IMG/VR virus record: IMGVR_UViG_3300017714_000146
Span: 1 to 25,565 of that record
Direction: 5' to 3' (one strand)
Length of the DNA stretch: 25,565 nucleotides
DNA from: a virus
Translations under genes and position numbers: made by a program
Part shown: piece by piece, positions 1,751 to 25,565 of the stretch
How positions within the stretch are numbered: the first letter of the stretch is position 1
Layout of the letters: every line of letters starts with the position of its first letter
The notes under the pieces: model-generated
What the model was told of the DNA's origin: nothing
The model's database searches: none
What the model saw: only the letters and a program-made list of their open reading frames with translations

Positions 1751-3595
1751 ATGAAACAACTTAACGTAACAGAACTCGATTTTGACAAGATTAAAAGCAA
1801 TCTAAAGGATTACTTGAAAGAGCTTCCTGGCGGTGAATATCAAGACTGGGATTTTGAAGGCTCAGGTCTGAATCAATTACTTGATGTTCTGGCGTATAAC
1901 ACGCACTATAACGCTATCCTTGCGCATAACACCATGAACGAGTCTTTTATTGATTCGGCTCAGATACGCGGTAACGTTGTTTCACGTGCAAAGCTTCTTG
2001 GTTATGTTCCGCGGTCAGTTACTGCACCAAAGGCAACACTTTCAATTGCATTTCCGGGAGATATAAATGAAAGTAGAGATACTTATTCTATTACGTCTGG
2101 TCTTAAGTTTACAACGATTGTTGATGATGTAACATACACATTTATAACGATTGAAGATTACACCACACAGCTTGATACAGTAAGTGATTCATATGTTTTC
2201 CCCGCCGTTGAAATTTATCAAGGTCGGATTAAGCATAATAAGTACGTTGTAGATGAGGGGTCGATTAATCAGAATTTTGAGATTAACGATACAACGATCG
2301 ATATCTCTCAATTGAGTGTTGATGTATATGATAATAGCAGGTCGAACGCGTTCCAGTCATACACAAGATTTGATCAAATAGGAGATGTTGGACCCGACTC
2401 AGCAGTTTACTTTATTCAAGAAAACTACGATAACCATTATGAGATTTCTTTTGGCGATAACGTTTTCGGCAAAAAACCCGATGCTTTAAATATTATTGAT
2501 TTTAAATATTTGAGTACATTTGGTGCTGATGCAAATAACGCATCGATCTTTGAATGGGCTGGTGTTGGAGCTTCTCCATCGTCGATCTCAACGATTTCAA
2601 AGGCATCAGGCGGTACTTCTCGTGAAGGAGTTGAAAGTATTCGATTTAATGCACCACTTTCATTTATAGCACAAAACAGAACAGTGACTATCGATGATTA
2701 TAAATCAATCATTGGTCAAAACATCACAGGTATTCAATCACTTTCTGTTTGGGGCGGACAAGACAATAATCCTCCAGAATTTGGAAAAGTCTTTATTAGT
2801 GCTAAGCCCGTTGAAGATGATTTTCTGAGTGTGCAGACAAAGGCTGATATCATGGATTTGCTAAAAACAAAAAGAGTAGTTGCGATTCTGCCAAAAATAG
2901 TTGATCCTACTTTTACACGATTATACTTTGATGTTTTGCTTAAGTACGATTCAAATCGTACGAGCTTATCTCAAGGGCAACTAGAAACAAAAGTGCGAGG
3001 AGCAATTGAAGAGTTTAACGCTGAAGAACTACAAAGGTTCGATGGTGTCTTTCGTTCTTCTCAACTGCTTTCTCTTATTGATAATAGTGACTTTTCAATT
3101 CTTAATTCAGTTATTCGAGTGTTTGTGTATAAAACACTTGACATCGTTTATGCTAATCTTACTCCAATGCAATTGAATTTTGATATGACTTTATACGGTG
3201 ATGAAGATGAAGATGAATCTTTAATGACTTCTGACCCGTGGGAATTTGGTGGTGTAACATATCGTTTAGCAGATGAAAGAAAAACTGATGGATCAGCAGG
3301 AAGAAATGTGTATGCTTATCGTGAATCATCTGCTGGAGAGAGAATTAAAGTATATAAATCAATTGGCACGTTATTTCTCGAAGAAGGCCAACTTAGTTTA
3401 AACGCGCTTCCTGTTGAGCAAAACGAATCAATTAACATTTACGTTTCGCCTTCTTCAAATGATATTGTTTCAAAACGAAACAATCTGCTTTCAATTGATA
3501 TTCAGAAAACATTTATAGGTGCTGAAGTTGATGCTATAGCGGTCGCTGGTTCTTCTGGAGCAATTGACTATAATACATTTAATCGACATCGCTAA
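1751..3595 (+). CDS. 6: Baseplate wedge subunit gp6 (baseplate J-like)
   Basis: This 614-aa protein resembles gp6 of T4-like phages (T4 gp6 is 660 aa). The N-terminal region has the typical segment LPGGEYQDWDFEGSGLNQLL (about 25-44) and NTHYNAILAHNTMNESFIDS, followed by the RAKLLGYVPRSVTAPKA motif (about 78-94). These are the hallmarks of the baseplate J / gp6 family. The middle holds beta-rich segments (SFGDNVFGKKPD), and the core J-like region (FNAPLSFIAQNRTVTIDDYKS) lies near residue 300. gp6 forms the inner ring of the baseplate, linking neighbouring wedges with gp25 and gp53. The start lies two bases after the gene 25 stop, so the genes are probably translationally coupled. No Shine-Dalgarno sequence is seen. 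The C-terminal ~100 residues look less conserved. Confidence 0.93.
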   Translation: MKQLNVTELDFDKIKSNLKDYLKELPGGEYQDWDFEGSGLNQLLDVLAYNTHYNAILAHNTMNESFIDSAQIRGNVVSRAKLLGYVPRSVTAPKATLSIAFPGDINESRDTYSITSGLKFTTIVDDVTYTFITIEDYTTQLDTVSDSYVFPAVEIYQGRIKHNKYVVDEGSINQNFEINDTTIDISQLSVDVYDNSRSNAFQSYTRFDQIGDVGPDSAVYFIQENYDNHYEISFGDNVFGKKPDALNIIDFKYLSTFGADANNASIFEWAGVGASPSSISTISKASGGTSREGVESIRFNAPLSFIAQNRTVTIDDYKSIIGQNITGIQSLSVWGGQDNNPPEFGKVFISAKPVEDDFLSVQTKADIMDLLKTKRVVAILPKIVDPTFTRLYFDVLLKYDSNRTSLSQGQLETKVRGAIEEFNAEELQRFDGVFRSSQLLSLIDNSDFSILNSVIRVFVYKTLDIVYANLTPMQLNFDMTLYGDEDEDESLMTSDPWEFGGVTYRLADERKTDGSAGRNVYAYRESSAGERIKVYKSIGTLFLEEGQLSLNALPVEQNESINIYVSPSSNDIVSKRNNLLSIDIQKTFIGAEVDAIAVAGSSGAIDYNTFNRHR

Positions 3596-3622: not shown

Positions 3623-6600
3623 ATGTCATATCATTCTTCATCGGGCAGTAGTTCTTCTGGATCAAGTAGTTCTTCTGGATCAAGTAGTTCTTCTGGATCA
3701 AGTAGTTCTTCTGGATCAAGTAGTTCTTCTGGATCTTCGAGCAGTAGTTCATCACCCACTGTCTCTGGGGCAGTTTATTATTTACAAGGTGAAAGCAATA
3801 GCGGGAATACGTCCGGAACCGTGGGTTATTTTTATCCTCTTTATACCGATGAGTCATTGATTAGCGGAGCATATCATTCTCATACATTTACAGGATTGAA
3901 CCAGGTATTTTATATGCCTTCAAATGAGATGAATCATGGAGTTGCAAACCCACCGTCATTCGCGTATTATGGTAACTTTACGTATCAAGAGTATGCAACC
4001 TATAGTGTTACTAATGACATAGTTTCATATACAAATATTTCAACTACACAATCTGCTATTGCAGTTGCGTCTGTCTCTGATTCTGTTGTTCCTCAAAACC
4101 TTGAAACAACTCGGACAAACACTCTTATACCCGAGCAGCTTATAGGTAAGGCACAAGGTCTTATTCATTTACTTAAAGATTATTACAATTATTTAAATGC
4201 AGAAGGCCTTCCTTCGTATGAAATAAATCTTATTCTCGATAATCACGACATTGATCGAGTTTCAGCAAAGTACATAGATAGTATTGGAAGAGAAATAGCG
4301 AAAAACGTGCCAAACTCAAAGGTGCTTGATCAAGTTTCTCTTTACAAAAAGATTGTTAAATTCTATTCAACTCGAGGATCAGAGGATAGCTTATACGCGT
4401 TTTTTCGTATTTTCTTTGATGAAGCTGTAACTGTAGTATATCCAAAGGAAAGACTATTTAAACTTTCTGATGGCGCGTGGAAACCCCGCGACGATAGTGA
4501 AGAATTTGAAATCATTGGTAATCTTTTATCCGGCGATTTAAAAACTGAAGATAATAATACTCTCTTTAACGTTAATGATGCACAAGGAAACAAATTAGGT
4601 ACCGGTCAACTATCTAGTTTTGTTAATGTTGATGCATCTTTCGATTATGATAATATAGAAGAAGGTTTACAGATTGCTTTTGATAGTAAACAAAATGCTA
4701 CAGACGCCACTTGGATATCGAATACTGATTATCCTTGGGTAGGGAATATTCGAGGAAGTGTTACATATAATGAAGAAATCTCCGAATTTGTTTTTCCTGG
4801 AGGAGACAATGATTATATTAATCTAGGCACAGTTGGAAATCAGTCTTCAGGGCTTGTTACAAATGACCACACCATAGTCGCAAGAGTAAAAAGAGAATCA
4901 CGCGGTAGGCAATATCAAGGTATGTTTTCAGCTTCACAGATTTCGCAGGATCGTGCAGGTCATGAATTATACATAGATCGAGATACAGGTAAATTAGGTC
5001 GACAATTTGTTGATATCGATAATCCAATGATCGTAGCAGATGGAAGCAATATCCGTATTCGTAACTTTAAGTCGATGAACAATTGGCGAGGAAACTTAGG
5101 AAATACTGCATCCTCTGGAGAAACATATTATAAAAACACTGCATACGCTAGCGGCACTGGACTATATAACGGTAAACCGTTTTATGTAGATAACATTTAT
5201 TACTTTGGCGCGACTTCGACATCGCTCGCAACACCATACACCACTTGGGACGAAAATACGGGATTCGGCACTGTAGAAAATTGGCCGGTTGCTAAAATAT
5301 ATTATGATGGGAATAAGTGGGTGTTTAAAGGCGCAGCAGTGTGGAATTTAATAACACAGACGTTTTCTTCTACAGGTGTAATTCTGTGTTATTCAGAAGA
5401 CACCAGTGAAGATGTGTTCTCGGCAAATATTGAATGGTTTAACGAAAGTGGTTCGCCAACGGAGAACGCGTTTGTAAATACACCTGTAGAAATTGATGGC
5501 TCATCTGCAGCTATGAACTTTTCTTCACAAGCCACTATTCCAATCGATAACGAATACCACACTGTTGCTTTGACAGGAAAGCAGGCGCGTAAAGGAGGCT
5601 ATATTAAAGTGTCAGTTGATGGTGGCGCTTGGGAAACTATTATTTCAGGTGACACTAGCGTGCATTTAGATGTTGATTCTAATACAAATATTCAAATTGG
5701 CAAAGGGTATAGTTATCCTTTTAAAGGATCTATGACGAATGTTCAGTATTATAATACTGTTCTTTCAGCAGCCGATGTTTTGCAATTACATAACTATTAT
5801 ATAGGTATAGCGTTAGACTTTTATCAAATAACATTTGAGAATAAAGATGGAAGTTATGTAAATGGATTAAAGTTGGTTGAAGCTGAAAAAGAAGCGTATA
5901 CTTTAAACATATTATCAGGTCATGAAATTGATTCATTTATTGAATTTACGGGCCCCACATTAAATGAATCTGGAGTTGGACCAACTGTGCGTATAAAGGC
6001 TGAGTATACTCAATCAGTCGCAGTTGAAAAACAAAAGGTAAGATGGGGAGATTCTAGGTCTGATTTATTTTCATCGGGAAATAATGTTAGACACACCTAT
6101 ACGCCAAGAAATATTGGCACATATGAAAATCAACATAGTTTTGCTTCAGACATTAATCGATTGCATGATGGTGATTTTTGGCAGGAGTTTTCTTATGTTA
6201 TTAATGTTGGTTTATCTTCTGATCAATGGGAAAACGAATATATTAGAATGGTGCACCCCGCTGGCCTGAAATTCTTCGCGGCCGTGCTTTATATACTTTC
6301 TCTAGAAAACAATTGGCTTGGCCCGAAAGTGCGGTTTGATGAAGTATTAAGACAATATAAGACAACGTTTGATAGTGCACGATACAAACAAACCTATAGA
6401 ACTAAGGATCCTCTGATTGATCTTGATTGGATGGAAGGTTTGACACCACCATCTATCTTAGATGCAAGTGCTAACGCGCACCACATGCCACTCTTTCAGC
6501 CGGGTTGGTTAACTGGAGACTTAAGGTTCCTTGAAATGATTATTGAAGCTTTCGAATTTGGTCTTGGGCCCAATGATCCTTCATATCAAAGGATGGTACT

Positions 6601-6889
6601 ATCGACACTTCATCTTCTTCATATAACAACAAAGGATAGGAATGCATTTGCTCGCGGAGACTATTTACAAAATCTTAAATTTTTCGATGTAAACGAAATT
6701 GGACCTTATTTAAACACTACGTTTGAAGAAGCGGTTTTCAATAATCAAAATATTTTTAATAACATAAGATCTATTATTGATATATCTCTTATAGACAATC
6801 TTCGCTTGAACACTGAAGATCTTAAAGATATAACAACTGAAGATAAGGATGCGACAGACCCCAATGGCGATGCATACTTAATAAAATAA
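3623..6889 (+). CDS. 7: gp7-like baseplate wedge protein with Ser/Gly repeat and inserted LamG-like domain
   Basis: This is a 1088-aa protein in the gene 7 position, after gene 6. Residues 1-45 are almost pure Ser/Gly (an 18-nt tandem repeat). A helical region at about 170-290 (LIHLLKDYYNYLNAEG, VSLYKKIVKFYSTRGSEDS) resembles the conserved part of large virion structural proteins of marine T4-like phages. A LamG/concanavalin-like domain follows in two pieces: about 395-480 (NDYINLGTVG, DHTIVARVKRES) and 614-722 (DNEYHTVALTGKQ, GGYIKVSVDGG, FKGSMTNVQYYNTVLS). A different module is wedged between them (about 485-612; LYNGKPFYVDN, KIYYDGNKWVFKG). The structural core appears to resume after 725 and ends acidic. 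The role is inferred: wedge assembly by the core, glycan or surface binding by LamG. The gp7 assignment rests on order and architecture more than on a signature motif. Confidence 0.78.
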   Translation: MSYHSSSGSSSSGSSSSSGSSSSSGSSSSSGSSSSSGSSSSSSSPTVSGAVYYLQGESNSGNTSGTVGYFYPLYTDESLISGAYHSHTFTGLNQVFYMPSNEMNHGVANPPSFAYYGNFTYQEYATYSVTNDIVSYTNISTTQSAIAVASVSDSVVPQNLETTRTNTLIPEQLIGKAQGLIHLLKDYYNYLNAEGLPSYEINLILDNHDIDRVSAKYIDSIGREIAKNVPNSKVLDQVSLYKKIVKFYSTRGSEDSLYAFFRIFFDEAVTVVYPKERLFKLSDGAWKPRDDSEEFEIIGNLLSGDLKTEDNNTLFNVNDAQGNKLGTGQLSSFVNVDASFDYDNIEEGLQIAFDSKQNATDATWISNTDYPWVGNIRGSVTYNEEISEFVFPGGDNDYINLGTVGNQSSGLVTNDHTIVARVKRESRGRQYQGMFSASQISQDRAGHELYIDRDTGKLGRQFVDIDNPMIVADGSNIRIRNFKSMNNWRGNLGNTASSGETYYKNTAYASGTGLYNGKPFYVDNIYYFGATSTSLATPYTTWDENTGFGTVENWPVAKIYYDGNKWVFKGAAVWNLITQTFSSTGVILCYSEDTSEDVFSANIEWFNESGSPTENAFVNTPVEIDGSSAAMNFSSQATIPIDNEYHTVALTGKQARKGGYIKVSVDGGAWETIISGDTSVHLDVDSNTNIQIGKGYSYPFKGSMTNVQYYNTVLSAADVLQLHNYYIGIALDFYQITFENKDGSYVNGLKLVEAEKEAYTLNILSGHEIDSFIEFTGPTLNESGVGPTVRIKAEYTQSVAVEKQKVRWGDSRSDLFSSGNNVRHTYTPRNIGTYENQHSFASDINRLHDGDFWQEFSYVINVGLSSDQWENEYIRMVHPAGLKFFAAVLYILSLENNWLGPKVRFDEVLRQYKTTFDSARYKQTYRTKDPLIDLDWMEGLTPPSILDASANAHHMPLFQPGWLTGDLRFLEMIIEAFEFGLGPNDPSYQRMVLSTLHLLHITTKDRNAFARGDYLQNLKFFDVNEIGPYLNTTFEEAVFNNQNIFNNIRSIIDISLIDNLRLNTEDLKDITTEDKDATDPNGDAYLIK
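3647..3736 (+). repeat. Five-copy 18-nt in-frame tandem repeat (Ser/Gly linker)
   Basis: The unit AGTAGTTCTTCTGGATCA occurs five times head to tail, the last copy differing in its final base. It encodes SSSSGS repeats at the N-terminus of the gp7-like protein. Because the unit is a multiple of three, changes in copy number would alter linker length without breaking the frame. Confidence 0.95.
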
Positions 6890-6922: not shown

Positions 6923-9900
6923 ATGGCTGAAATCAAAATATCGGAACTGAACGCGGTTCCATCAACTCCAACTGGCACTGAGCTATTGGCAATAGTACAA
7001 TCAGATGGACAAAGCGGGCTGGATACGTATAAAGCAACAATAGATGATCTTAAACCTGCGCTTGAAGATAATCTAAGTACTGGTGCGCCATCGTGGACAA
7101 CAGGCGGGGTGTTAAGAGCGGGCCACGATATTATTGCAGGATATGTTGATTCGGGTGCAAGCACTGATGGAGGAGGTACCATTGGTCTTACACTTAATGA
7201 TGGTTACGGTGATGCTAATATCACATTTAATCATACAGGTGGTATTCCTGATAGAGCTGGCTCTTCTGCGAGAATTACATCTTCTGTTGACAGTAATCAA
7301 GAGCTATTAGATTTTCAATTAAAGGGAGGCACCACAACAGGTAGTGTTGCAACACTAACATCTGTACTTCAATTGCGTGACGATAAAATATCGCTACTTC
7401 AGCCTACTTTACTGAGTACAAATGGAAGCGCTACGACATCACTTGTAAATAAAGGATACATTGATAGTGCTGATAGTGCAGAAACCGCAGCGCGCACCGC
7501 TGCGGATTCCGCCAATCTTACAGCGGCCAAAAATCATGCTAATAGTCTCGTTGCTGCCGAGGCCGCGACTAGAAGTGCTGCTGACACTACACTAACCAAT
7601 GATCTTAGTGATCTTACTGCAGAAGTAGAAGGAAAGATTGGTGAAACCGAGATCGATACTTTGGCTTTTACTTTTGCAAATAATACACTATCACTTAACA
7701 CAATTCTGGAAGGACAGATTGGAACAGGTGCAGTAACGACAACTAAGATAGACGATTATAACATCACTGCTAATAAATTAGTAGGAACAGAGAGTATCCA
7801 AGCAAACGACTTCTTGATTTATGATTCAAACAGTGGAGGATTTCAAACTACTGCTTCAACTATAACACCGCACAAGCTATTTAGTAATAATCATACTGAT
7901 GTAGACTCAAGCGTAACTCCTTCCTATGGCGATTCAATGTACTATAACGGTACGGAATGGACTACCGGAAACTTTGGCAATTACGGTGCTGACATGGAGT
8001 ACATGCCAATTAGCGGGGCAAGTAATGCTACATTCACGAATCTTTTATGGTATGGCCTTGGTAATAGTTCTGCAAGAGATTGCCCAGATCACTATCACCG
8101 CTATTTTACTTGCGCAGATGCGACTGCAGACATCGACACTACATCTACTGGCAACGAAGCACGACAAAGCAATCCTCAGTCTGGTGTTTTCAATCCAGGC
8201 ATTATGGAGCAAACGGTTGCAAATACGTTTAATTCAGATGAGTATAATACTTCACGAGTTGGTTTTGCGACATGGAAGCAGTCGGATGGACGTGATGACG
8301 CGAATCATGAAATATCAGGCTCTATTCAATTTCCTCTTGCTGATCTAACAGGTGATGGACTCGTTAATCAAAATATTCGAGGGTTATTTATTAGAGTTCA
8401 TGCTCGTATGCACGCTAACAATACTGAGCGCAAGTCTGAAATGTTTATATCATATCCAGGTGGCTCGAAACAACCTTTATTAAAAACTGATTTTATAGAC
8501 GACGGCGATCTCGGTGCGGTTACTGGAACTAAAATAGATCAGGTATTATTAGTGCCAGTTAATGAAGGTCAAACTCAAATTGAAATCGACTTTAATCTTA
8601 ATAGAAGCACCGACGAAGGTGTAGAATTCGAAATCATTGGAGCTCAATGTACAAAACGAGTTGAGTTAAGTCCAGATGTTGATATTATTCAGATCGTTGG
8701 TTCACAGTTGTCCGAGCAGAGCCCGCAAGGATATGTTGATGAAAACACAAGTACTTTTCAGGGTGATCCATCTGTATGGACGAGTGAGGCTCCAACCACA
8801 ACTGGCGCAACTGACTGGTCTGGTGTATTTCCAATTGAAATTCCAGATAATGTATCTAAATCAGTTATAAGCATAGTAAATAATTGGAATTATGGCGCCT
8901 CATCCAACGAAGAAATAGATCACATTACGATAACAGTTGATTGGAATGCAAATACCATTTTTGGTACTTATACATGGGGCAGTGAATATGAGGAGACTGG
9001 ATTTCTATATTCGACAGACTTAGTAGGAGAAAAAACATTCACAGTTGAACAACGCACTGGTGATGCTAATACTCCTACTACAATAAAATTTGAACTTAAT
9101 GGAAGAAGTATAGTTAAGTTGCCTTGTCCAGCGCATAACACCACATATTTTAATATGGGTCAGAAATACACCATTGAGAATTATAAGACAAATGCAATTA
9201 GCACGTATAAGTCGTATGATAATTCCTTTGGATTTTTCTTTGATCCACCGAATCATCAAGGCTATAGCACATTCTTTGGTTCTAGCTATATTTCGAAAGA
9301 TGGTAGTTTTATCTTCTCTGGTGGTGGAAGTACGTATCAGCTGAATGGCGCATCTCCTGCGACAATACCTTCATACTCTCGTGTGCAAATTCCATTACAA
9401 ACCGGTGAAAAGGTAATCGAGTATTATTATTCAGGTAATAACCTAGTTAGTGCATTCGTGTTAACAGATAGAGGACGAGTGTTCGGTGCAGGGTATGGTG
9501 GTACTGGCCAGCTTGGTCAAGGCAATCTGAGCGAGCAAAAAAGCTTTCAATTGATTCTTGAAGATGTTGCATGGTTATCAGTAGGAAATGGAAACACTTA
9601 CTATGTGCATTGTCTTGCTATTCTAAATGATGGAACAGCTTATTCTTGGGGAAATAATGGTGCGAATGAATTAGGAAGAGGATCAGCGCAGACTTATAAC
9701 AACGCAGTGAATATGTCACCTGGACAAATTCCAGGATTTGGTGAGGGCGCGGCAAATGGTAAAGCTGAAAAGGCATTTGCATTTAGTAGTGTTTCTTATG
9801 GCAAGTCATTTATAATCACTGAAGATCGAAAAGTATGGTCGTGCGGTGCCGTTTATAATGGAGGATTAGGACATAGCACATCACAGTCATCATTTGCTGA

Positions 9901-10927
9901 TACTGGTCGAGAAGGAGATTATCTTGTGGCCAATAGCACTGAGGCTAACAAATCGGTATTTATCGTGGATGGGACAGATCTATGGGCTGCAGGCGATAAC
10001 ACTTATGGTCAATTAGGATTAGGCAATACGACTCACGGTTTGTTATTTCAACAAGTTACACTTACAAATGGTGTTTCTCAAATAAGCACAGCCGGTACAA
10101 ATGCTTCAACCATTGTCATAGAAACTGATGGTAGTATTACAGTGTTTGGATACAACGCGCTTGGTCAATTAGGAACAGGTGATTTAACTCAGAGAAATTC
10201 TCCTACTACTATAGCTGCTTTAGGAACAAACAATAAGAAAGTAAAACTATTTGGCCCTGATAACTATGTTGCGGCGTATATTCTTAAAAATGATGGAACA
10301 GTGTTTGTATCAGGCTATAACGGATATGGCCAATTAGGAACAGGCGATTTAACTGACCGTAGCACATTTACAAAAATGGTTAAAGAGGATAGAGTCTTTA
10401 TAAAGGATTTCCAACTCTTCGGTTATAACAGTCAGAATTCATTTGTAGGAGTTGATCAAGACGATAACCTATGGGGCGTTGGACAAAATTCTGATTATAG
10501 AATGTTAAGTACGACTAACGGCGTCGGTGTTCATCGATCTCTTTTAACAAAAATTGATGCGGTTGATGGAGTTTCTTCTGGCGGCGATATCACGGCCCTC
10601 GATCCTGCAAGAGAATACAACAGTCTTACACACTCTACTGTTACCGATGTAATACAATATAACGATACTGGCAGGCCATTGTGGGTAAGTTTTACTATCT
10701 ATTCCAACGCCGCGGATATCGCATATTTGTTAGGTGAAATCAATCCGAACGCAAGTATGACTGGGAGTGGGGGTGCAAGAGTAGGTCAAACTCGGATCTA
10801 TAGTGACGAGCGTGGTGATTCTGGAGCGCAGGTTACTATGATTGTCCCAAGTGGTTGGTATTGGAAGTTTGGTTACAACGCGACGAATGGAGGAACAGAA
10901 AAGGTTCACTCTAGCTTTACACTATAA
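6923..10927 (+). CDS. Large fibre-like structural protein with seven RCC1-type repeats
   Basis: This 1334-aa protein lies between the 7-like gene and gene 8. The N-terminus (MAEIKISELNAVPSTPTGTE) is of the type found on many phage tail proteins. Residues about 180-260 are Ala/Asp-rich and probably coiled (SAETAARTAADSANLTAAK). Regions at about 350-600 and 630-800 look like beta-sandwich domains. From about 840 to 1195 there are seven RCC1-like repeats, recognisable by DGTVFVSGYNGYGQLGTGD-type motifs (also GRVFGAGYGGTGQLGQG, GTAYSWGNNGANELGRG, DLWAAGDNTYGQLGLG). Seven is the number needed to close a beta-propeller. A small C-terminal domain ends at FTL. The likely role is a baseplate-attached fibre or receptor-binding protein; the target is unknown. 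The gene has its own late promoter, and no Shine-Dalgarno sequence precedes it. Confidence 0.85.
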   Translation: MAEIKISELNAVPSTPTGTELLAIVQSDGQSGLDTYKATIDDLKPALEDNLSTGAPSWTTGGVLRAGHDIIAGYVDSGASTDGGGTIGLTLNDGYGDANITFNHTGGIPDRAGSSARITSSVDSNQELLDFQLKGGTTTGSVATLTSVLQLRDDKISLLQPTLLSTNGSATTSLVNKGYIDSADSAETAARTAADSANLTAAKNHANSLVAAEAATRSAADTTLTNDLSDLTAEVEGKIGETEIDTLAFTFANNTLSLNTILEGQIGTGAVTTTKIDDYNITANKLVGTESIQANDFLIYDSNSGGFQTTASTITPHKLFSNNHTDVDSSVTPSYGDSMYYNGTEWTTGNFGNYGADMEYMPISGASNATFTNLLWYGLGNSSARDCPDHYHRYFTCADATADIDTTSTGNEARQSNPQSGVFNPGIMEQTVANTFNSDEYNTSRVGFATWKQSDGRDDANHEISGSIQFPLADLTGDGLVNQNIRGLFIRVHARMHANNTERKSEMFISYPGGSKQPLLKTDFIDDGDLGAVTGTKIDQVLLVPVNEGQTQIEIDFNLNRSTDEGVEFEIIGAQCTKRVELSPDVDIIQIVGSQLSEQSPQGYVDENTSTFQGDPSVWTSEAPTTTGATDWSGVFPIEIPDNVSKSVISIVNNWNYGASSNEEIDHITITVDWNANTIFGTYTWGSEYEETGFLYSTDLVGEKTFTVEQRTGDANTPTTIKFELNGRSIVKLPCPAHNTTYFNMGQKYTIENYKTNAISTYKSYDNSFGFFFDPPNHQGYSTFFGSSYISKDGSFIFSGGGSTYQLNGASPATIPSYSRVQIPLQTGEKVIEYYYSGNNLVSAFVLTDRGRVFGAGYGGTGQLGQGNLSEQKSFQLILEDVAWLSVGNGNTYYVHCLAILNDGTAYSWGNNGANELGRGSAQTYNNAVNMSPGQIPGFGEGAANGKAEKAFAFSSVSYGKSFIITEDRKVWSCGAVYNGGLGHSTSQSSFADTGREGDYLVANSTEANKSVFIVDGTDLWAAGDNTYGQLGLGNTTHGLLFQQVTLTNGVSQISTAGTNASTIVIETDGSITVFGYNALGQLGTGDLTQRNSPTTIAALGTNNKKVKLFGPDNYVAAYILKNDGTVFVSGYNGYGQLGTGDLTDRSTFTKMVKEDRVFIKDFQLFGYNSQNSFVGVDQDDNLWGVGQNSDYRMLSTTNGVGVHRSLLTKIDAVDGVSSGGDITALDPAREYNSLTHSTVTDVIQYNDTGRPLWVSFTIYSNAADIAYLLGEINPNASMTGSGGARVGQTRIYSDERGDSGAQVTMIVPSGWYWKFGYNATNGGTEKVHSSFTL
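10007..10354 (+). repeat. DNA-level repeats in neighbouring RCC1 blades
   Basis: The motif encoding GQLGTGDLT recurs with little divergence. The 27-nt stretches beginning at 10163 and 10328 differ by only two bases and lie 165 nt (55 codons) apart. A more diverged copy begins at 10007, 156 nt (52 codons) earlier. This is consistent with internal duplication of propeller blades. Confidence 0.75.
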
Positions 10928-10983: not shown

Positions 10984-12420
10984 ATGTCAGCAATTATTAC
11001 AAACCAATTTAGAAAAAATTCAAGAGAGTTATTCATTAACGATATTGAAGATAGTACTACTGATGATTATTTTATCGGTATCGGAAAAACGGAACCTTGG
11101 CCAACACTTAATGGTGTTGACGAGTCGAACTTGAATTATGCAGTGCCTCTTCCAACTAATACATTAATTGAAAAAGAAGACACTCTGAAAAATCTTATTT
11201 CTCTTTTAAAGGTAGAAGAAACCTTTAGTGTAATACCGCGCAACCAATGGCGCAGTGGTAGAGTATATAAGGTCTACGATCCTTATGATCCTAACATCTT
11301 TAACTTCGAAACAATCGGCGCATCGGCGTATTATCCGTGCTATATGACACATACGGTCGATAATGTCGATAAGATTTTTGTGTGTCTAAATAATGACGGT
11401 GCTACTGCGAGTTCAGTTAATCCTACAGTGACTACATACGCTTCACCTGGCATACAAACTGATGGCTATCTTTGGGCATATGTTTGTGATCTAGATAGTA
11501 CGTCTAATTTTTACACAGATCAGTTTGTTGACATCCCTGCTGATCTTACACCGCTCAGCAGTCCAGCTTCAGATGCATCTAATGCGACTGGAGGTATTGT
11601 ATATGGCTTTAAGGTTGTCGATGGAGGTAGTGGCGTTGGTGGAACAGAAGACATTCGATTAGTTGGAAAAGACTCAACAGGTGCTATAGTCACAGACGAT
11701 AACATAAGATCTGGCGGTACTGATGGCCAGCATTACGATGTAACTATTTTAAGTGGTTCAATTACTGAAATTAAAATTACAAATGATCAATGGCCTGGCG
11801 GTTACGCAGACGCTTCAGTTATTGTTGATGGTATAGAAACTGACATTAGACCATTAGTTGCGCCAATCTCTGGATTTGGATTTTCTCCAAGAAGTGACTT
11901 GCCTAGTTTTTACGCCGGTTTATTTGGATCATACGAAGGAAACTTAGGCGGTGAAGCGCCAATCAATGTGGCATTTAGACAAGTAAGTCTTGTAAAAGGT
12001 GCAACCCGCACAGATAACGATACTCCTGCCGATGCATCTTTAAGTATATTTGATACTCTCCAATATTTGGAATTGTCTAATGTAAGTGATGTAAGTGGAA
12101 TACCTGTAGACGCTGGTACAGTTATCGAACACCAGACAAACGCAGCAAAAGCGTATTTAGATTATGTTGATACAACCACTAATCGAGTGTATTATCACCA
12201 AAATTCAAGTGGAGAAATTAACGAAAAACCTTTCCTTGCAAGTGGAAATGTTAATTTTACAACACCTGCTGGAACGACCAGCACAAACTATGCAATAAGT
12301 ACTTTAGGACAAGGCGAATATAATCCAGGCACAGGCGAAGCACTTTTTCTTGAAAATAGAAAAGCAATTTTAAGAAACAACAATCAGCAAGAAGACATTA
12401 AACTAGTTATTCAATTCTAA
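10984..12420 (+). CDS. 8: Baseplate wedge subunit gp8
   Basis: This 478-aa protein has the gp8 signature of marine T4-like phages. The N-terminus is SAIITNQFRKNSRELF, followed by YFIGIGKTEPWP, and PRNQWRSGRVYKVYDPYDP occurs near residue 80-100. The C-terminal block NRKAILRNNNQQEDIKLVI is a typical closing motif of this family. It is longer than T4 gp8 (334 aa); a glycine-rich part at about 200-295 (VVDGGSGVGG, GGYADASVIVDG) may be an added module. gp8 forms dimers in the outer baseplate wedge and contacts gp6, gp7 and gp10 in T4. The gene follows a late promoter directly, and its stop overlaps the next ATG by one base (TAATG), so it is likely translationally coupled to the DUF4815-type gene. 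Confidence 0.9.
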   Translation: MSAIITNQFRKNSRELFINDIEDSTTDDYFIGIGKTEPWPTLNGVDESNLNYAVPLPTNTLIEKEDTLKNLISLLKVEETFSVIPRNQWRSGRVYKVYDPYDPNIFNFETIGASAYYPCYMTHTVDNVDKIFVCLNNDGATASSVNPTVTTYASPGIQTDGYLWAYVCDLDSTSNFYTDQFVDIPADLTPLSSPASDASNATGGIVYGFKVVDGGSGVGGTEDIRLVGKDSTGAIVTDDNIRSGGTDGQHYDVTILSGSITEIKITNDQWPGGYADASVIVDGIETDIRPLVAPISGFGFSPRSDLPSFYAGLFGSYEGNLGGEAPINVAFRQVSLVKGATRTDNDTPADASLSIFDTLQYLELSNVSDVSGIPVDAGTVIEHQTNAAKAYLDYVDTTTNRVYYHQNSSGEINEKPFLASGNVNFTTPAGTTSTNYAISTLGQGEYNPGTGEALFLENRKAILRNNNQQEDIKLVIQF

Positions 12421-23686: not shown

Positions 23687-25565
23687 ATGAACTTAACTGA
23701 TGCGCTTAGTATAAAAATAGGGACTGCCGATGCTGTTGATGTTAGGTTAGGATCTGTTTCAGTGTGGTCAGGAGAATCTTTGGCCGAGACCTTTTTGACG
23801 TATGATAGTAGTTCTTTAGGTACTCTTAGGAATCCAGACAATAGCTCAAGGACAATGACATCATCGAATGGCGGGAATTGGATGTCTAGCGTACTTGATT
23901 CAGCGTCGAATGGATGGTGGCCAGGAAATTGGAGTGGTGGTACGATAAGCTCCACGAACACAACTGAGTGGTTACAAATTGATTTAGGAGAAAATCAAAA
24001 TGTCACTGGAGTAGTCGCTCAAGGCCACGAAAATTCAAATCTCTATTATGTTAACAAATACCGAGTAGAGTATTGTATAGAAAATTCTATTCAATTCTCT
24101 GTAAGTGGTATGGCTGCAGGAACAAGCAGCGATACTTATTTCAATAGTTCAACTGTTAGTCACTATGAAGTAAATGGAACTTATGGCGGTAAAATACAAT
24201 ATGTAGCATCAGGTGAAAGCGATTCGTCAATAAGATATAGAAGTTCGGATAATAAATGGGAATTTGTTAACGATGGTGATGAGTATTATATTTCAGATAC
24301 TACTAATAGCGATAATCCATGGGCTGTTACGAGTTGGTCAGTACACCCTGGTGATGGAAGTGGAGATACTAACAGCGGAATAGTACTTAGCGTTGATCAG
24401 AATACGTTTACTGATATTGACAGTGGAGCTGAATTTAACTATGACAATGAAGGAGATGGAAATACTAAGATTTATAATAGTTTTGCTACACCAGTCACTG
24501 CTCGTTATATAACAATATTTCCTACAGGTTACCAAGGCCTTCCTATAATGCGAGCAGGCGCGTTAATAGATGGTGTAGAAATACAATTAATACCTGAGTT
24601 TAGTGGGTCTAGCACTGTTGATTGGGGCGATGATACTACTACTGACGCTTTGGTCAATAATACGTCAGTTAGTCACGTCTTTAATCCCTTTATCGATTCA
24701 ACTGCTATTAACGGTCCTGTTTCAACGTATAATACAACCACCCTCGCTAGAACTGTAAATCCTCCTGAATCAGATCGATCATATTCATCATTATATCGCG
24801 ACTATTCGCCCCACAATCAATCAATGTTAGACTCAATAGGGGCTTGGTCAGTCGCGAGTGGCTATACTATAGGTAGTGAATGGATGCAAATAGATTTAGG
24901 CGCAAATAAGACTATAACTGGAGTAGTTACTCAAGGAAGAGCTAACTTCAGCGCCGGTCAATACGTTACATCATACAAAGTAGAATATTCAAGTGATGGA
25001 ACTAATTGGTCTTGGGTAGATAATGAGAATGTATTTACCGGAAATAGTGATAGTAATACTAAAGTTACAAATACATTTACTACAAGTGTTTTGGCTCGTT
25101 ACATAAGAATATATCCAGAAACATTCTTTGGTTATCCTTCGATGAGAGCGGGTGTAAGAGATTCAACTGCTAATAATATTAATGAAGGAAGCGCGTTAAC
25201 ATTTAACGTTGCTACAACAAATGTAGCAGATGGTACTACACTCCATTATACGATTCTTGGTAATACAGGAGACTTCTCTACAACAAGCGGTGACTTTACT
25301 ATTGGTGCTAATGGCAATGGATCGTTCACTGTAACACCAACTGCTGATTCAGCAACGGAAGGTGACGAAACCTTCCAAGTTCAAATACGAACTGGAAGTG
25401 AAAGTGGTACTATAGTAAATACAACTGATGCAATTACTATTAGTGATACTTCAACTGGCTCTGCCTCTCCAACATATGATGCAACTCCAGCTGCTACTAG
25501 TATTAATGAAGGAAGCGCTTTAACAATTAACGTTACAACTACTAATGTATCAGATAGTACTACGC
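23687..25565 (+). CDS. Large adhesin with F5/8C-like, PKD-like and Calx-beta-like domains (3' end outside window)
   Basis: The frame runs open from ATG 23687 to the window end (626 codons); an in-frame stop at 23681 fixes the start region. The N-terminus (DALSIKIGTADAVDVRLGS, then VSVWSG) is of a type used by phage tail proteins. A first discoidin (F5/8C)-like domain covers about residues 40-295 (EWLQIDLGENQNVTGVVAQG, RYITIFPTGYQGLPIMRAG) and is interrupted at about 130-240 by another module (TYGGKIQYV, NKWEFVNDGDEYYIS). A PKD-like strand follows (VDWGDDTTTDALVNN, about 308-322), then an intact second F5/8C-like domain at about 348-491 (EWMQIDLGANKTITGVV, RYIRIYPETFFGYPSMRAG). Calx-beta-like repeats start near 497 (INEGSALTFNV). 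These folds bind glycans or surface proteins, so this is probably a host- or particle-surface adhesin of the tail. Confidence 0.82.
   Translation, partial: MNLTDALSIKIGTADAVDVRLGSVSVWSGESLAETFLTYDSSSLGTLRNPDNSSRTMTSSNGGNWMSSVLDSASNGWWPGNWSGGTISSTNTTEWLQIDLGENQNVTGVVAQGHENSNLYYVNKYRVEYCIENSIQFSVSGMAAGTSSDTYFNSSTVSHYEVNGTYGGKIQYVASGESDSSIRYRSSDNKWEFVNDGDEYYISDTTNSDNPWAVTSWSVHPGDGSGDTNSGIVLSVDQNTFTDIDSGAEFNYDNEGDGNTKIYNSFATPVTARYITIFPTGYQGLPIMRAGALIDGVEIQLIPEFSGSSTVDWGDDTTTDALVNNTSVSHVFNPFIDSTAINGPVSTYNTTTLARTVNPPESDRSYSSLYRDYSPHNQSMLDSIGAWSVASGYTIGSEWMQIDLGANKTITGVVTQGRANFSAGQYVTSYKVEYSSDGTNWSWVDNENVFTGNSDSNTKVTNTFTTSVLARYIRIYPETFFGYPSMRAGVRDSTANNINEGSALTFNVATTNVADGTTLHYTILGNTGDFSTTSGDFTIGANGNGSFTVTPTADSATEGDETFQVQIRTGSESGTIVNTTDAITISDTSTGSASPTYDATPAATSINEGSALTINVTTTNVSDSTT
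25177..25565 (+). repeat. Calx-beta-like tandem repeat, period 324 nt, second copy cut by window end
   Basis: The stretch starting TATTAATGAAGGAAGCGC at 25177 recurs at 25501, exactly 324 nt (108 codons) later, with about 56 of the 65 visible bases the same by eye. Each copy encodes the INEGSALT.NV start of a Calx-beta-like unit. The in-frame period suggests a tandem domain array that continues past the window. Confidence 0.88.

Follow-up and report, generated by a model that had tools for sequence, protein, structure and literature searches.

Baseplate wedge proteins are usually treated as a conserved scaffold. In phage T4, gp7 is present in six copies, one per wedge, in the baseplate pins. 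It contacts gp8, gp9 and gp10, and infection makes one gp7 domain swivel (PMC3004832). One gp7 and two gp6 molecules make up the trifurcation unit, which has its counterpart in TssF and TssG of the T6SS (PMC6300606). Among non-cyanophages, the gp7 proteins of T4-like phages are very divergent (PMC3037559). In phage A-1(L), an insertion domain of a wedge protein holds the tail fibre (PMC10966104), and a putative wedge protein of phage K8 gained oligosaccharide/receptor binding (PMC9887876). Domain mosaicism in phage tail proteins is already established (PMC10684548).

The gp7 proteins of T4 and of Kyanoviridae and Emdodecavirus phages have two core parts in the same order, encoded beside gp6 and before gp8. 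In T4 gp7, domain V (residues 766-861) lies between the core parts, and about 640 residues precede them. The DNA analysed here, hereafter the window (25,565 nucleotides, the whole of the stretch from IMG/VR record IMGVR_UViG_3300017714_000146), comes from a marine T4-like virus. Its gp7-type protein differs from that of T4 in its middle 540 residues, which carry a LamG domain and a further module, and the Pfam gp7 domains V and VI of T4 were not detected in it.

A gp7-type wedge protein

The ORF at 3623..6889 (1088 residues; all features given here are on the plus strand) is predicted to encode a T4 gp7-type baseplate wedge protein. It matches the Pfam family of phage baseplate wedge subunits PF23786 (E=1.4e-10), which it has in common with the Kyanoviridae and phiM12 proteins, and its PHROG label is also baseplate wedge subunit. 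The gene order in the window is gp25, gp6 (1751..3595), the gp7-type ORF, an ORF with RCC1 repeats and gp8 (10984..12420), with gp6, gp7 and gp8 following one another as in T4. The ORF between gp7 and gp8 (6923..10927) has 1334 residues, with repeats of the RCC1 propeller type.

PDB searches with profiles of the core parts did not retrieve T4 gp7, and homology was then compared directly. The profiles, built from 14 gp7 proteins including that of the window, matched T4 gp7 at residues 667-758 (24.5 bits) and 862-898 (12.6 bits). Because these matches keep the order of the core parts and flank domain V of T4 gp7, the gp7 reading holds. The first match corresponds to an N-terminal core part at residues ~165-290 (4115..4492), which also has matches in phage isolates, and the second to a C-terminal core part at residues ~831-1076 (6113..6850). 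At the very N terminus (3632..3757, residues ~4-45) there is a serine/glycine repeat tract, the length of which differs in the related contigs L002 and L003; the orthologs in L004, L006 and L008 are without the entire N-terminal ~140 residues.

A LamG domain in two parts

A reading made from the sequence only had proposed that the core of this protein is split by a LamG-like domain, and that this domain is in turn split by a smaller module. Our results back both levels of this arrangement, and move its boundaries. The N-terminal half of the LamG domain occupies residues ~346-466 (4658..5020) and the C-terminal half residues ~628-727 (5504..5803), instead of 395-480 and 614-722. The core, which had been drawn to about residue 390 and again from about 725, ends near 290 and starts again at ~831; another stretch, residues 736-830 (5828..6112), which is kept among LamG-bearing orthologs, intervenes where the C-terminal core had been thought to follow the LamG domain directly. 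The inner module grows from ~125 to ~160 residues (about 467-627), and the two motifs reported within it are present as described, LYNGKPFYVDN at residues 514-524 and KIYYDGNKWVFKG at 558-570.

When the halves are joined without residues ~467-627, they match the Laminin_G_3 profile (PF13385) over positions 2-150 of 151, with an E-value of 1.2e-9 and 38.9 bits against a curated cut-off of 27.6; a LamG profile is thus recovered from the joined halves, as the same reading had anticipated. The C-terminal half by itself matches positions 64-150 (5.9e-7), and the N-terminal half by itself has no Pfam match. In the ortholog L004, the joined halves reach 3.6e-12 over positions 1-150, and the unjoined stretch from the module to the end 4e-7 over positions 55-150. 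An independent HMM, built from 68 phage LamG domains, places the N-terminal half on its positions 8-103 and the C-terminal half on 121-183, and is colinear in the joined order only (12.0 bits joined, 4.9 swapped; a score that is weak by itself). The module sits between the LamG strand that ends in KLGRQFVD and the strand before EYHTVALTG. Once joined, the LamG domain of the window gives a full-length profile match like the Laminin_G_3 domains of phage tail proteins, from which it differs in being split by a ~160-residue module and in its location in a wedge protein.

The nested architecture recurs in L061 and in 13 other contigs that a search with the module retrieved (fragments and near-duplicates among them), so it is no accident of assembly. 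Taken together, the profile matches indicate a LamG domain in a gp7-type protein that is split by a second, nested small domain. AlphaFold gave a low-confidence model (pLDDT 31) for residues 285-835 with nine orthologs. A LamG-enriched alignment for structure prediction was dropped, given that MAFFT had placed first halves of LamG domains on the inner module.

The inner module and its family

The inner module (residues ~467-627, 5021..5503; motifs NGKPFY and IYYDGNKW) was modelled on its own, with NGKPYY-family sequences in the alignment, as a beta domain, with moderate confidence (pLDDT 67, pTM 0.69). Fold searches (PDB, BFVD, Foldseek, VIA-align) gave no convincing relative, the best Z being 3.5, and sequence searches were negative in Pfam, PHROGs and isolate phages and yielded nothing credible in the PDB. 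Acyl-CoA dehydrogenases, which the module profile reached among PDB sequences at E 0.05, were judged to be chance matches.

The order of motifs in the module resembles that of what we take to be a repeat module, and a generic probe of such a module was used as a lead for a family search. The probe had no match among isolate phages but retrieved real copies in viral and phage contigs. These are frequently arranged in tandem, and in L080 a LamG-like stretch comes after them. A real copy of this NGKPYY module likewise found isolate phages only at E-values of 1 or more, and no relative in genome_contigs. The gp7 module and the NGTY/NGKPYY modules of phage contigs L080, L083 and L084 have in common the motif order NGKPYY, I-Y-DG--W, Y-S-x-D and W; the gp7 module has additional loops and roughly twice the length, and the likeness exists at profile level only. 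Profile-profile comparison (hhalign) of the gp7 module with this family scored 29.6-33.3 (P 3e-5 to 9e-5), with few columns carrying the score. No more than 15.5 was reached in 60 column shuffles, and profiles made from other parts of gp7 scored 7-10. The family HMM does not directly retrieve the gp7 module. From these profile comparisons, we consider it quite probable that the gp7 module is a divergent member of the NGKPYY family. The family is absent from Pfam and PHROGs, and for this reason the module goes unnamed in annotation.

Variable middles among relatives

Both core parts are present in the gp7 proteins of phages ZZ01, OC, Melnitz, Mosig and phiM12, with no detectable LamG domain between them. 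In the proteins compared, the distance between the core parts goes from 85 residues (OC) to ~1880 (L023), with 542 in the window. The inner module is present in all LamG-bearing orthologs except L023. The 2675-residue gp7 of L014/L023 aligns with that of the window to residue ~472 and again from ~643; the LamG loop that carries the module in the window is taken up here by ~1475 different residues, FG-GAP repeats included. No trace of the inner module was detectable in L023; a candidate remnant of the start of the module scored no better than shuffles. Unlike inserts at a single loop are to be expected of a nested arrangement.

A further case of nesting was found in L037 and L038, the gp7 middles of which both match Pfam E1_FCCH and carry a module of the NGKPYY type. 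In L037 (gp7 residues ~1086-1170) a stretch of ~75-84 residues, with an HGF-GN-V-F motif that resembles the surrounding repeats, breaks up the module, and in L038 (gp7 from residue ~876) the module is uninterrupted; the two thus form a pair with and without a further nested insertion. Searches with profiles of the N-terminal core, the C-terminal core and the second LamG half found no LamG-bearing ortholog with an empty insertion site, and the order in which LamG and module were inserted is therefore not proven. The repeated acquisition of parts suggested by the sequence-only reading agrees with the LamG-free relatives, the other insert of L023, the L037/L038 pair and the recombination of the module described below.

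Exchange of the module and rate of evolution

The window and L003 have in common a block (residues 447-611, 4961..5455) in which only 5 of 495 nucleotides differ (99% identity, dS 0.029), whereas their core parts are 80-88% identical. Across the module dS is 0.03, against 0.60 and 0.87 in the two core parts. With a background of 16%, a binomial calculation for this block gives 2e-30, a figure that is indicative only, since the sites are not independent. On its left side, the block extends ~20 residues into the first LamG half. With L002, a closer relative, the pattern is reversed: the core is 95% identical and the module 80%, with a dS of 0.51 in the module and ~0.2 in the core. A second case is the pair L006-L061 (module 83%, first LamG half 66%, C-terminal core 76%), and a third, smaller one is L006-L011 (module 93%, elsewhere 98-99%). 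These discordant identities show exchange of the inner module among related viruses by recombination, in the manner of a cassette. Such exchange is akin to the mosaicism of phage tails, which likewise involves domain recombination in host-interaction proteins, baseplate proteins included (PMC10684548); the difference is that here, in a wedge protein of the gp7 type, it is the inner of two nested levels that is exchanged.

Between the window and L002, dN/dS is 0.64 and 0.94 in the LamG halves and 0.35 in the module, compared with 0.05 and 0.13 in the core. At the protein level, LamG and module thus evolve faster than the core, a pattern that fits diversifying selection or relaxed constraint.

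Possible roles of the nested insertion

The reading that we favour, and regard as likely on balance, is that a site in the wedge core carries a LamG domain with a loop-borne ~160-residue beta module, that both are displayed at the baseplate rim as a glycan-binding adhesin, and that recombination swaps the module. The LamG domain, which is of the concanavalin A-like, sugar-binding type, occupies the site between the gp7 core parts, the content of which differs greatly among relatives, and the module would fold independently in one of the LamG loops. Both insertion sites may be surface loops that accept extra domains with wedge assembly undisturbed. If, as in T4, each baseplate has six gp7 copies, LamG and module would be displayed at the rim and could act as accessory adhesins for host-surface glycans. 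When relatives infect the same cell, homologous recombination would then swap the inner module, which may alter recognition and would leave the wedge core untouched. The putative surface binding is suggested by the LamG family and by protein evolution faster than that of the core.

Phage LamG domains may be structural only, and the nested LamG and module could serve as a decoration or spacer, for stability or fibre docking, with no role in host binding. We hold this to be somewhat unlikely. It agrees with the wedge insertion domain of phage A-1(L), which anchors a long tail fibre (PMC10966104), and with the fact that no binding residues or ligand could be identified in LamG or module; repeated replacement of the middle, exchange of the module and faster evolution are less expected of a docking surface.

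It is improbable that the inner module is an expanded loop of an unusual LamG domain, grown within the lineage, and not a separate domain. Such an origin would suit the want of a Pfam, PHROG or credible PDB match and the presence of the module in all LamG-bearing orthologs but one, yet the module is predicted to fold alone, with moderate confidence, recombines as a block, is replaced by other material in L023 and resembles a family with members in other places, one of them within an F5/8C domain. That the cassette exchange is an assembly chimera seems very unlikely: the sequences all come from metagenome assembly and L003 is represented by one contig, but two further metagenomes yielded contigs with the arrangement of the window (L001, L007), and the discordance is also seen in pairs without L003 (the window with L002, L006-L061 and L006-L011). 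A row of consecutive domains (a truncated LamG-like stretch, the module and a second, unrelated beta domain) would explain the lack of a Pfam match for the first half and the low pLDDT of the combined region, but it is hardly credible, given that the joined halves span a complete LamG profile in order in both the window and L004, that the separate HMM aligns them to complementary positions, and that L023 retains both halves around another insert.

Whatever the role of the nested domains, the architecture is well supported and clearly illustrates that domains can evolve within domains in a structural protein. Exchange at the inner level alone means that a structural protein can diversify with its assembly surface unchanged. 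A broader proposal, which we advance tentatively, is that in marine T4-like phages the site between the gp7 core parts serves generally as an evolvable socket, filled by nested adhesion modules that recombine independently. An essential wedge protein would thereby also take part in host recognition, changing fast, alongside the tail fibres, and the NGKPYY module would be a mobile insert, so far undescribed, with a preference for the loops of adhesion domains. If the wedge protein is also a variable display protein, prediction of host range from tail fibres only would miss a second determinant in marine T4-like phages.

A second nested insertion in the window

The last ORF of the window (23687..25564) contains a split F5/8C domain (23831..24574) with an insert of ~106 residues, followed by an unsplit F5/8C copy, and thus a second nested insertion in the same genome. 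Its joined halves score 58.7 bits over positions 4-117 of 127, and the first half 37.6. The module inside it (24077..24394) scores 26.7 over 63 columns against the NGKPYY family in hhalign, with a maximum of 14.7 in 60 shuffles, and by this profile comparison it is assigned to the family. An extra F5/8C domain, which resembles the copy in the last ORF of the window, is also found at the C terminus of gp7 in L006, L011 and L061 (PF00754, 1.4e-27 in L006, 7782..8289).
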